Positions 27,980-42,555 of a stretch of DNA of 64,000 nt are shown in pieces. Positions within the stretch are counted from its first letter, which is position 1, and every line of letters begins with the position of its first letter. Location of the stretch: positions 62,001 to 126,000 of the forward strand of contig NZ_CABWID010000016.1 of the NCBI RefSeq assembly GCF_902501965.1. Direction: 5' to 3'. The position numbers were made by a program, and so were the translations under genes. The notes beneath the pieces are model-generated. The model was not told the origin of the DNA. It saw nothing but the letters and a program-made list of their open reading frames with translations, and searched no databases. The stretch comes from Collinsella sp. AK_207A. Lineage in GTDB: Bacteria; Actinomycetota; Coriobacteriia; Coriobacteriales; Coriobacteriaceae.

Positions 27980-28190
27980 GCGATACTTTATTGGTTTGCT
28001 TGTATGCGGCCAAAACCACGGCGATAGTTTATCGGTTTTCAGGGCGCTTGGTGAGTAGCGGGATCATGAGCGGCAACGAGTTCGCAGGTCAAGATGTCGG
28101 CCAAACGAGCGATACATGCCGGCTCTACGAAAACCGATAAACTATCGCCCTGCTTCGAGCTCCGTGGGCGAAAACCGATAAAGTATCGGT
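27980..28190. repeat. four-site palindromic repeat array, mirrored 2+2 (family A)
   Basis: The region between the ACT gene (start 27768) and 28465 carries no gene I can support. It contains four copies of a motif with core CGATA-N3-TATCG (or one-base variant): 27980-27999, 28020-28040, 28129-28149 and 28170-28190. The first two face one way and the last two the other. Copies 2 and 3 form a perfect 21-bp inverted repeat, GGCGATAGTTTATCGGTTTTC. Within each half the copies are 40 or 41 bases apart. The sequence between copies is diverged, so the motifs are the conserved part. Confidence 0.8.
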
Positions 28191-28690: not shown

Positions 28691-28718
28691 TGAATCTACC
28701 CCGATCCCGCTTACACCT

Positions 28719-29540
28719 CTACGCCGCCTTCTCCTCGGCAGCGTCTTTCAGATTCCTCGCCTCGAATTCCTCGGGGCTGAGGTTCCCCAGCGCCGAGTGC
28801 ATGCGGACCCTGTTGTAGAAGCACTCGATGTGCTCGAATATCTCTAGCGTCGACCGCTCCCTGGCCTCGAGAGTGCGCGCACTCGGCTTTTATGAGGCCC
28901 ATGAGCGACTCCGTCGCTGCGTTGCCCCACGGCGACGATATGAATCCCATCGAGGGCTCGATGCCGGCGCCGCGCATGGTCCCGCCCAGAAGCGGGGAGA
29001 CGTACCGGCTGCCGTCATCCGGGGCGACATGGACCGTTCCGCGATCATGCGGGACCATATGCCCATGACGATCGCGAGGTACAGCCGGCCCTGGCGGGTC
29101 CCAACGTAGGTGATGTCGGCGAACCGGGGCCTGTCGGGGCCGTCGGCGCTGAACTCGCGCCTCACCGGGTCGGGCGCCGCGTTCGCCTGGGACGCCGCCT
29201 GCTTCGACTTGCCCTTCGGCCTCTTGGCGCGCCTCCTGGTGATGCCGGCGCGTCCGTTCTCGCGCATGATGCGCGCGACGCGTTTGCGCGAGGTGCTCAC
29301 GCCCCGCCGGCGCAGCTCGGCGAAGACCTTCGGGGCGCCGTAGGTCCCGCGGCTCGCCTCGTGGATCTCCGCTGTCATTGACGCGGGTTCGGCGTCCCGC
29401 CGTTCGCGCGCTCGGCGGTCTCTTTCGCCACGCGCAGCGGCCTTGCCTGGTCACCCCGAGCGCCGAGCACATCTCGGAAACGGCCCAGGTCCCCTCGTTG
29501 GCCAGTATGAACTCGAATTCGGCCCTCCCCGCCTGGGCTC
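28719..29540 (-). pseudogene. IS3 transposase OrfB (multiple frameshifts)
   Basis: An integrase-type (DDE) transposase of the IS3 family in pieces. FEFILANEGTWAVSEMCSALG is in one frame, IHEASRGTYGAPKVFAELRR and FADITYVGTRQGRLYLA in a second, SMGFISSPWGNAATESL back in the first, and FYNRVRMHSALGNLSPEEFE with the stop at 28719 in another. At least two or three frameshifts prevent a single product. Confidence 0.8.
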
Positions 29541-29828
29541 CTACAGCTGCCTGCTGGCGAAGAAGGCGTTCGCTTATAAAAATATCTCGTTCTCCCTCCC
29601 GAGCCTCTCGACCTCGCGCCTCAGCTTGCGGATCTCCTCGGCGATCTTGAACGGGTTGTCCCCCGGTGCCGCTTGGGCCGCGTCTGACCGTTTGACCCAG
29701 TCGGCAAGGCCCGACGGGTCAACGCCGAGCTCCCGGGCGACCTCTGCGTAGGTCGTCTCCCTCTCGCGGTGCAGCTGCACGGCCCCCTGCTTGAACTCGG
29801 CCGTGTACTTGGGTGACGGGTGTTCCAT
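29541..29828 (-). pseudogene. IS3 transposase OrfA (premature stop)
   Basis: The DNA-binding OrfA begins MEHPSPKYTAEFKQGAVQLH and has the helix-turn-helix EVARELGVDPSGLADWV, then the leucine-zipper-like EEIRKLRREVERLGREN. An in-frame TAA at 29576-29574 interrupts it. The frame continues ANAFFASRQL to the natural stop at 29541. Confidence 0.8.
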
Positions 29829-29908
29829 ATGCCCTTCTCCGTCCTCCGTTTGGAAAAACATGACCAAACGGAAGGCGATGTGTCAACGAATTTGGGGCAA
29901 ATTCAGAT

Positions 29909-29980
29909 TCACATGGAGCGGAACAGCGCCTCCGCCTCGTCCCTGACGTCGTCGTCGACCTGGACCTGGGCGCTGGCCAT
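29909..29980 (-). pseudogene. DinJ/RelB-type antitoxin stub
   Basis: The ATG at 29980 opens MASAQVQVDDDVRDEAEALFRSM and stops at TGA three bases from the IS end. This is the N-terminal ribbon of a RelB/DinJ family antitoxin, normally about 85-95 residues. The rest, and any toxin gene (YafQ or RelE type), is absent beyond the IS, so the insertion appears to have destroyed a type II toxin-antitoxin locus. Confidence 0.65.
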
Positions 29981-30155
29981 CGCGGTCCACCCATCTACCC
30001 GGCCGCTCGCGGCGGACGGGGATGTCAAGGGGGCCCGAAACTCCGACGATGCGGACAGGATAACACGCCGCGCGGACGGATGCGCGACGCCCGGTGTTCC
30101 TCGTTTCCACCGGATGCTGTTGGTGCCGTTGGGCCGGCGAACCGCCGGGAGTCCG

Positions 30156-30411
30156 TTGCTAAGCAGACATGCCACCAAGGGGCCGTTGCTAAGCAAGCCA
30201 ACCGGTAAGGGGGCGTTGCTAAGCAGTCTTTCCTCCAAGTGCCTGAAAACAGGGGCTTAGCGGCATATCTGCTTAGCAATTGCCGCTGAGTGGCAGATCC
30301 GCTTAGCAACTGCCGGTGAGTGGCAGATCCGCTTAGCAACTGCCGAGGGGCGCGGGGCCTCGTGGCCGGTCTGCTTAGCAACCGCCCCCAAGTGACTAGT
30401 TTGCTTAGCAA
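30156..30411. repeat. phased TGCTNAGCA array, mirrored 3+5 (family B)
   Basis: From 29981 to 30586 I find no gene. Eight copies of TTGCTAAGCA or its complement occur at 30156, 30186 and 30216 (one orientation) and 30269, 30299, 30329, 30371 and 30401 (opposite orientation). Spacing is exactly 30 bases except at the turn-over and one 42-base step. Each core TGCT-A/T-AGCA is itself palindromic. Copies 4-6 also share their spacers, including CTGCC...GGCAG. A CCTG-AAAA-CAGG hairpin marks the centre near 30247. Confidence 0.85.
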
Positions 30412-30515
30412 CCGCCCCCGCCCCTGCCCCGCCCCAAAACCCGCGGGCATGAGACTTTTGTGGCGTCGTACGCGCTACATGTCCATGTGCTAAACTACCC
30501 AACTGCTGTAATTGT

Positions 30516-30561
30516 CTTGGTCGGAAACCAAGGCACCCCTGAGGCTTGGTCGGTAACCAAG
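30516..30561 (+). promoter_or_regulatory. twin dyads upstream of rpmE
   Basis: CTTGGT-CGGAA-ACCAAG (30516-30532) and CTTGGT-CGGTA-ACCAAG (30545-30561) are near-identical 17-base dyads, 29 bases apart. They follow a TGTAAT -10-like sequence (30507-30512) and lie ahead of the rpmE ribosome-binding site. They could be operator sites at the transcription start or tandem leader hairpins. Confidence 0.6.
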
Positions 30562-30586
30562 TCGCGAGACCATGAGGAGCCCTGCC

Positions 30587-31030
30587 ATGAAACAAGGTAT
30601 CCATCCGGAGTACGTGGAGTGCACTGTCCGCTGCAGCTGCGGTAACGTGTTCACCACCCGCTCCACCAAGTCGGAGATCATCGTCGAACTCTGCAACATG
30701 TGCCACCCGTTCTACACGGGCCAGCAGAAGTTCGTGGACACCGGCGGACGCGTCCAGCGCTTCGCCGACAAGTTCGGTGGCGCCGCTGCCGCCCAGCTCG
30801 AGCGCGAGAAGGCCGCCAAGGCCGAGCGCGAGAAGAAGGCCGCCGAGGCCGAGGCCGCTCGCAAGGCCGAGCGCGAGGCCAAGGCCGCCGAGAAGGCCAA
30901 GCGCGCTGAGAAGTTCGCCGCCGAGGCCGCCAAGAAGGCCGAGGAGGAGGCTGCCAAGGCCGCCGAGGCTCCTGCTGAGGAGACCAAGGCCGAGGAGGCT
31001 CCTGCCGAGACCGAGGCTGCTGCCGAGTAG
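30587..31030 (+). CDS. rpmE: 50S ribosomal protein L31 with long charged tail
   Basis: The first 70 or so residues are a normal zinc-containing L31: [20 protein letters not shown], then [20 protein letters not shown]. The cysteines in VRCSCGN and LCNMC are the zinc ribbon. An extension of about 75 residues made of Ala, Lys and Glu ([19 protein letters not shown] and similar) follows and should form a long helix. L31 is usually 65-90 residues; this one has 147. ATG 30587 has GAGGAG seven bases upstream. Confidence 0.92.
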
Positions 31031-31134: not shown

Positions 31135-31153
31135 ACAAATAGGAAATATGTTT

Positions 31154-31249
31154 GCCGATGGAAAGCAGACAGGCAAGGCAGTCCTGCCGGTGAAAAGCAG
31201 ACAGGCAAGGCAGTCCTGCCGGCGGAAAACAAACAGGCAAGGCGGGCCT
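31154..31249. repeat. 32-bp tandem repeat, three units (family C)
   Basis: Units at 31154-31185, 31186-31217 and 31218-31249, followed by a degenerate partial unit. Each has the frame GCCGGTGAAAAGCAGACAGG followed by CAAGGCAGTCCT. At the junctions GGCAG and CTGCC can pair. The array lies in the leader of the LanC-like gene. Confidence 0.85.
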
Positions 31250-31322
31250 GCTGGCAGAGGGCCGGCCGGCAGCGTAAGCGGACCAGCAAACCAAGCCGGT
31301 CAACGGCGGGAGGGAGCATCCC

Positions 31323-42383: not shown

Positions 42384-42555
42384 CTCGAGGGAACCACGCT
42401 CGCCCTGGACACGAGCGAGGTTGAGCGCTGCAGGGGTCCCGGTATATCGCCCCACGCGCAGTTCGCGAAGCGTTGTTTGAGCATGGGGCGATATACCGGG
42501 ACCCCTCGTCAGAGCGAGCCTACTCCGCGTCCAGGTCGATCGTGGTCCCCTCGAG
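42384..42555. repeat. long two-tier inverted repeat between thiC and thiM
   Basis: The inner arms GGGGTCCCGGTATATCGCCCCA (42433-42454, complement 42484-42505) pair perfectly over 22 bp around a 29-base loop. Outer arms of 27 bases (42384-42410 and 42529-42555) pair at 24 of 27 positions. The outer right arm is the 3' end of thiC (coding GTTIDLD), so the left arm is a diverged inverted copy of the thiC tail. The 22-23 bases between tiers do not match. Confidence 0.85.

Follow-up and report, generated by a model that had tools for sequence, protein, structure and literature searches.

Several kinds of clustered palindromic DNA are known from bacteria. REPs, BIMEs and REPINs are short palindromes that are dispersed, intergenic and clustered and that carry species-specific letters, as outlined in the parts of PMC2817692, PMC3733652 and PMC3116915 that deal with them. 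The strong gyrase site of E. coli appears in the relevant part of PMC6379681 as a symmetric duplex of ~130 bp with a G+C period of 10.75 bp, and the same source places BIME-2 elements between genes. Operators of the Lrp/AsnC proteins, according to the portion of PMC2995911 drawn on here, consist of clustered palindromes 2 to 3 helical turns apart on one face, with the DNA wrapped round the oligomer. Arrays of the kind reported below were not found described in the literature on Collinsella/Coriobacteria palindromic repeats, REPIN/RAYT, interspersed palindromes, and phased palindromic arrays, as far as titles and the openings of abstracts go (PMC8040213, PMC12306157, PMC3733652, PMC2817692).

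The window, by which we mean the whole analyzed stretch of 64,000 nucleotides, comes from a Collinsella genome (G000) of 2.12 Mb in 24 contigs. It carries an unstranded, mirrored array of eight core sites at 30156-30411, three forward and then five reverse; six match TGCTNAGCA exactly and two have one change. The forward cores are exact copies of TTGCTAAGCA on the plus strand, at 30156-30165 (outermost left), 30186-30195, and 30216-30225. On the minus strand, exact TTGCTAAGCA occupies 30270-30279, 30372-30381, and 30402-30411 (outermost right), where the window reads TGCTTAGCAA starting at 30270, 30372, and 30402, while the two one-change cores, TTGCTAAGCG, lie at 30300-30309 and 30330-30339 and read CGCTTAGCAA from 30300 and 30330. 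All steps inside each run are 30 bp, bar one of 42 bp before the core at 30372. The initial annotation had counted eight sites, and all eight are present, but two of the cores are inexact and its reverse coordinates were one base low; the 30-base intervals with a single 42 that it gave are borne out by the core positions. Exact TGCTNAGCA occurs 6 times in the window, compared to 0.79 ± 0.91 in 100 shuffles, of which the largest value was 3. The orientation flips at 30247/30248, within an unstranded 64-bp imperfect palindrome (30216-30279) that has an A-tract at 30246-30249 and its dyad at 30247/30248.

Across G000, exact TTGCTAAGCA was found 78 times (37 forward and 41 reverse), against 0 for a reversed control pattern. 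All but two of these cores (76/78) fall in 12 arrays of one form; the remaining 2 are single and lie in apparently coding stretches. Every one of the 12 arrays consists of a forward run, a mirror point, and a reverse run, and none alternates. The two cores that face each other over the mirror point are 54 bp apart, core to core, in 12/12, and the centre pattern TTGCTAAGC-N46-GCTTAGCAA is exact in 10 arrays, with one change in the other 2. Spacing was counted with cores of up to two mismatches accepted, except for stray two-mismatch words at a greater distance in L013, L018, and L019. By this count the first outward step is 30 bp in 23 of 23 cases, one array being without a second right core, whereas the later outward steps (n = 46) measure 30 bp in 14 cases, 31 bp in 15, 41 to 42 bp in 6, and 28 to 34 bp otherwise (Fisher's test, 30 bp versus other lengths, inner versus outer steps, P = 7e-9). 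The constant 54-bp centre and 30-bp first steps thus define a rigid four-site kernel of 124 bp (core-30-core-54-core-30-core) with looser extensions, and this spacing is common to the G000 arrays that have those sites. In the window, the unstranded kernel spans 30186-30309, from the second forward core to the second reverse core, with the cores at 30216-30225 and 30270-30279 as its inner pair. Two half-arrays facing each other had been suggested for this locus, and the fixed dyad, with the flip at 30247/30248 and a centre distance that is constant over the G000 arrays, agrees with that. Left arms comprise between 2 and 7 units and right arms between 1 and 5 (rank correlation between the two counts, 0.57; P = 0.05). 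Division by 3 is exact for 20 of the 46 outer steps (30, 33, and 42 bp) and not for the other 26 (28, 29, 31, 32, 34, and 41 bp). Since these 26 break a reading frame, the arrays are not a coding repeat, which upholds the earlier statement that nothing coding explains the locus. BLAST of one array showed that longer aligned pieces of the copies are ~70-77% alike, indicating that the arrays were not recently copied.

We then looked at the genes around the arrays. In 2.1 Mb, each of the 12 arrays lies between frames taken as genes. Neighbours named by Pfam include a HAD hydrolase, tyrosyl-tRNA synthetase, adenylosuccinate lyase, glucose-6-phosphate isomerase, release factor 3, PEP carboxylase, MurG, regulators of LuxR type (beside L011) and LacI type (beside L013), and others. 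The window array is flanked by transposase frames on the left (28711-29867; HTH_Tnp_1 and HTH_21, IS3 type by reading) and by the diverging gene for ribosomal protein L31 on the right. Proximity to IS elements, one of the patterns proposed for a search of related genomes, therefore holds at the window array but not as a rule, ordinary genes standing beside the other arrays wherever Pfam names them. Nor is a linked DNA-binding gene, also proposed, common to the arrays; the LuxR-type and LacI-type regulators at L011 and L013 are single cases. A shared neighbour gene as the binder was likewise rejected, as few neighbourhoods coincide among G000, G013, and G033, near the number expected by chance on a rough estimate. 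At L011, a 339-aa frame (L011:3813-4832) without a Pfam match, which we take to resemble AbiEi/DUF559-type proteins, has its stop codon inside an array core; because it covers the 160-aa and 98-aa open reading frames on the opposite strand between the L011 arrays, these two are probably not genes.

Gene layout, read by hand in G000, is convergent at 4 arrays, tandem at 7, and divergent at 1, the window array; Pfam gave no match for the neighbour to the right of L017. For 47 elements of sister genomes, heuristic gene calls gave 15 convergent, 18 tandem, and 5 divergent layouts, with 7 unclassified and 2 apparently inside frames; this set includes 12 of 13 G033 clusters and leaves out the G103 and G052 elements. 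Convergent layouts outnumber divergent ones 19 to 6 among the 50 classified elements (38 sister and 12 G000; P = 0.015). Downstream (3') of tyrS and prfC in the sisters, other palindromes or none were seen among the matches listed, of 60 loci.

The window and the genome hold other repeats as well. Mirrored CGATAGTTTATCGGTTTTC-type repeats, two per arm and 41 bp apart, with 88 bp between the inner arms, occupy 27981-28188 of the window, and pairs with similar gaps (88 and 90 bp) lie at L123:11320-11467 in G000 and at L128:6555-6680 in G027. A 32-bp repeat, TGCCGGTGGAAAGCAGACAGGCAAGGCAGTCC, stands roughly three times in tandem at 31153-31251, ahead of the next gene, and a hairpin with 29-nt arms that are 93% complementary (AGGGGTCCCGGTATATCGCCCC) lies at 42432-42506. 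On contig 14 of G000, very long inverted repeats with arms of 32 to 54 bp occur at L120:16109-16349, L121:12139-12394, L126:8381-8603, and L125:13402-13509; their outer arms differ, and inner motifs such as CAGGAACG and GAAAAC are found in three of them and partly in the fourth.

The position of the arrays raises the question of RNA. Nine of the 12 G000 arrays lie within 120 bp of a gene 3' end (by reading), and the array might be transcribed there as a long hairpin that serves as a terminator, a stabilizer, or an RNase III substrate. Folding is strong on both strands, with z scores of −8.0 and −7.1 for the 281-nt array. The 12 centres, each a 64-bp imperfect palindrome, have a tract of A or T at the dyad, and this tract served to orient them all alike. 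In this alignment the arms pair in 85.5% of cells and covary, with a score of 0.213 compared to 0.105 ± 0.018 (0 of 500 shuffles as high) and to at most 0.12 when the partners were slid; pairs changed on both sides numbered 11 versus 7.3 expected (7 of 500 shuffles as high). In 5 of the 12 oriented centres, a C faces a C (columns 21 and 44). Pairing of this kind would suit an RNA; however, on the strand named by the loop, G-U and A-C oppositions balance at 16 to 16 (hand count), and this lack of a G-U excess fits a duplex rather than RNA. In the seven arrays taken to have one direction, the strand that the adjacent genes read has 14 G-U versus 7 A-C (P = 0.19), or 11 versus 7 with L011a swapped for L011b. 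Window positions 29850-30650 held 0 terminator-like sites, with 0.8 expected, and an intrinsic terminator was dropped for the window array, where a GC-rich stem with a T run was not seen. An Rfam search over the window region returned three matches, all under their gathering scores. Two leader-like matches to L31-Coriobacteria (RF03128) stand before the L31 gene at 30514-30579 (30.1 bits; gathering score, 33). Moreover, the flanking genes diverge at the window array and at 5 of the 38 classified sister elements, and neither the helical spacing nor the 10-bp phasing of A/T bases described below would have a reason in an RNA. We therefore consider a function of the arrays as transcribed hairpins very unlikely.

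Among relatives, the layout and the letters part company. The initial annotation had raised the possibility of a repeat family spread in the genus; a family is indeed present, as 12 arrays within G000, but none of the 97 relatives searched has the 18-base centre pattern in exact form, and some relatives have similar layouts with other letters. A pattern scan of named genomes yielded 7 stretches, each a lone pair and all looking like chance. With one array as the query against 43 genomes of the genus, BLAST gave matches of E ≤ 1 in 21; outside G000, no E value was lower than 0.02. A covariance model built on the G000 centre (R1) recovered the 12 centres of G000 without exception. At E ≤ 0.5 it also matched nine sister genomes (10 of 43 genomes in all), the best two being G034 (E = 2e-8) and G013 (E = 5.7e-6); the best E value in G033 was 0.0046, and matches in G009 and G010 were dropped as plain hairpins. 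The dyad of G034 is a solitary hairpin with 13-bp arms and a 16-bp loop, for which outer units are not known. The G013 hairpin occurs in six copies in that genome and had no convincing match elsewhere in the genus. G033 carries 31 sites (up to one mismatch) of a 16-bp palindrome, CGARTGTRYACAYTCG, that is absent from the four other genomes searched for it; 17 of the 19 steps between neighbouring sites are 52 bp, the others being 63 and 51 bp. Other palindromes were seen in further sisters. One dyad of ~57-67 bp with CATGTACATCAGCC arms is common to G011, G014, G036, and G002 (L148, L149, L150, and L151) and was left out of the counts. In G041 (L132:4846-5129) and in the prfC neighbourhood of L095, L099, and others, TCTGTAAC/GTTACAGA dyads recur about every 80 bp in alternating orientation, a BIME-like order, with an A/T tract near several of them.

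Beyond the genus, R1 matched at E ≤ 0.001 in 10 of 65 genomes of the family, from 5 genera and with G000 included. Among 247 genomes sampled from the order, only 8 reached E ≤ 1e-4: G180, which is of a different family, and 7 members of this one, G000 among them; generic hairpins thus seldom trigger the model. In G048, which belongs to another genus, 10 of 12 R1-matched loci contain a four-unit kernel in the order forward-forward-reverse-reverse, built of TTCTTATGCAGAATGG-type units (counted with up to 6 mismatches of 20). Its left step is 31 bp, its centre 64 bp, and its right step 30 or 31 bp; one kernel locus has a further unit outside, and the other 2 of the 12 loci are of a second type, single palindromes. 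Because the outer units are not part of R1, the G048 kernel is independent support, and the layout persists in another genus while its letters change. G058 has TGCATGC sites with 29-bp steps in 3 of 6 loci, and G099 and G049 have dyads of 55 to 69 bp whose apex is similar and whose arms are different.

In having identical letters at its two ends, the ++-- order is reminiscent of transposon ends that carry several transposase sites. The kernel could accordingly be a MITE, that is, inverted ends with two transposase sites each and almost nothing between them, to which the outer units would be extra, and several G048 elements end in AACTTCTT or AAGAAGTT. Against this, unit number differs between arrays and between arms, so that there is no fixed end in G000, and inspection of two G048 loci by eye showed no target duplication. 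A query with one G000 array found nothing in 72,556 plasmid and 50,697 phage records, the exact centre is absent from viral contigs, and the ~70-77% likeness of the array copies tells against such an element too. Carriage by a plasmid, phage, or virus was also rejected, the four viral contigs that matched containing unrelated repeats. We hold the chance that the arrays are elements of this type to be slim, and no specific pointer was found to either a partition site or mini-transposon ends, both of which had been offered as alternatives at the outset.

The spacing is echoed in base composition. In the G000 arrays, A/T content peaks at the dyad and then at ~10, 20, 26, 30, 40, 50, and 60 bp to both sides. 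A/T power at a period of 10.0 bp, computed over entire arrays, is 4.67, compared to 1.03 ± 0.32 in 30 dinucleotide shuffles; it is 4.17 at 10.25 bp and 1.21, the chance level, at 10.5 bp. The G048 kernels reach 6.55 at 10.0 bp, compared to 1.06 ± 0.32 in 200 plain shuffles. Part of the 10-bp phasing in both genomes arises because a unit of ~30 bp is repeated, but the palindrome-to-palindrome distance of 53 bp at the centre is not a product of that repetition. About the dyad, the A/T profiles of G048 and G000 correlate with an r of 0.52 overall (0.73 in the inner 32 bp and 0.20 in the outer part), against at most 0.28 with the dyad displaced by 2 to 20 bp. For G033 versus G000, r is 0.50 in register, ~0.5 at a displacement of 9 to 10 bp, and negative at 4 to 6 bp; since the correlation is equally high at the 9- to 10-bp shift, phase alone agrees with G000. 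These data support the early proposal that the sites lie on the same DNA face, in step with the helix. Phased bends that repeat at less than 10.5 bp fit a left-handed, nucleosome-like path, and the 10.0-bp repeat of the arrays suggests that their DNA may follow a left-handed path.

Two of the known systems can be compared on this point. Like the strong gyrase site and BIME-2 elements, the arrays have a symmetric kernel, here 124 bp, that is intergenic and whose base composition is in step with the helix; unlike the gyrase site, they have a period of 10.0 bp and specific palindromes at each step. Power at 10.75 bp is 0.40 for whole G000 arrays, 0.95 for G000 kernels, and 1.42 for G048 kernels, with chance at ~1.05 ± 0.3. 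Gyrase as such was rejected because the period is wrong and power at 10.75 bp is near chance. The arrays share clustered palindromic sites in helical register with Lrp/AsnC operators, but many of them are not at promoters. An Lrp/AsnC protein was also set aside as the binder: HTH_AsnC-type domains gave one weak match in G000 (29 bits; cutoff, 27) and one under the cutoff, and none in G033 and G025.

Altogether, the geometry of the arrays is real: directional units of ~30 bp with palindromic cores, an invariant four-unit kernel, and A/T bases every 10.0 bp. Mirrored, helix-phased palindromes with similar layouts in relatives suggest DNA sites wrapped by protein. We therefore favour, with a probability of roughly 40%, the reading that the arrays are dispersed, two-fold symmetric duplex sites wrapped by a candidate oligomeric protein. 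Protein dimers would sit on the cores along one helix face, the DNA would be able to bend round the complex thanks to its phased A/T steps and the A-tract at its dyad, and the outer units would extend the wrap. As a guess, which draws on the intergenic position of the sites and on their lying more often between converging than diverging genes, such a complex might act locally on chromosome shape, supercoiling, or read-through. The core letters differ between lineages, so the recognizer would either change with them or read shape more than letters. Several features speak against wrapping, among them these: the arms pair well enough for a hairpin, which simple protein sites do not need, and letters that differ between lineages are unusual for an essential architectural protein.

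A further feature, the likeness between the G034 dyad and a palindrome beside a Y1_Tnp gene, speaks for a different explanation, in which the arrays are palindromic repeats of a selfish or neutral nature, comparable to REPs/REPINs and BIMEs, and a transposase copies them in trans. Their symmetry would then come from a folded single strand that the enzyme recognizes, and the species-specific letters from turnover within genomes. As in REPs, BIMEs, and REPINs, the arrays are dispersed between genes and clustered, with species-specific letters and multiplied units, and the covariation of the centre arms accords with this explanation too. Sister genomes contain other hairpin families (the six copies in G013 and the tandem GTTACAGA/TCTGTAAC dyads in G041 and others), and genes with a Y1_Tnp domain, both RAYT-like and IS200-like, are present in 37 of 43 genomes of the genus. 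In G034, the arms and loop of the R1-matched dyad are shared with the palindrome beside a Y1_Tnp gene, and the arm recurs across the gene (L181).

The Y1_Tnp loci of G000 and of most sisters do not follow this pattern. The sole Y1_Tnp gene of G000, at C16:12714, lies ~79 kb from the nearest exact core; a different palindrome, GTGGTACATTGGGACTGTCCCACTGTACCAC, adjoins it, and the only core-like word in the surrounding 5.5 kb is a lone one-mismatch site inside the gene. A RAYT/REP origin of the G000 arrays was rejected on the ground that this gene is not flanked by array cores. The comparison covered 21 Y1_Tnp loci (four in G034; three in G014; two each in G013 and G041; and one each in G000, G033, G011, G002, G016, G027, G020, G024, G015, and G012), those of G016, G027, G020, G024, G015, and G012 being uninformative, as no array family is known from these genomes. 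A species' own dyad letters beside its Y1_Tnp gene were seen at none of the loci of G000, G013, G033, G041, G011, G002, and G014 and at 1 of 4 in G034; the G033 gene has a different REP on both sides. Species-specific palindromes stand beside Y1_Tnp genes of G033 (L177), G027 (L197), G034 (L179 and L181), and G000 (L119), and several of those next to such genes have a centre resembling GGG(A/G/T)C. One Y1_Tnp gene of G034 lies between copies of an arm, TGGGGACGTAGCC, that is also in the R1-matched dyad. The arrays differ from REPs, BIMEs, and REPINs in being mirrored (+++---) about one fixed dyad rather than alternating, in the invariant spacing of the kernel, in the gathering of 76 exact cores into 12 arrays, and in having no cognate RAYT that they flank in G000. 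Furthermore, no GT(A/G)G head was seen by eye in the consensus of the G000 centre or of the G000 and G048 kernels, and the phasing is kept in G048. Copying by a transposase is retained as a rival for the wider group, and as the chief alternative account of the arrays it is possible, if doubtful.

The preferred explanation, wrapping by protein, can be carried further, to a new class of wrapping site. It would have a kernel of ~124 bp whose geometry is kept across genera while its letters turn over, it would be read by a candidate architectural protein that changes with the letters or reads DNA shape, and it would be extended here by phased units, much like a growing nucleoprotein filament. This extension is rather unlikely to hold as a whole. 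If true, it would mean that the arrays lose their letters but keep their geometry, a combination that to our knowledge has rarely been seen so cleanly in dispersed repeats of bacteria, and it would allow a direct test of whether dispersed repeats are selfish or structural. The fixed distances of 54 and 30 bp and the 10-bp A/T phase are predictions that half-turn insertions could break. A dyad with phased mirror units also provides a search recipe for layouts that similarity searches miss, and, if true, the arrays would be a lead to a DNA-binding protein of these bacteria that is as yet undescribed.
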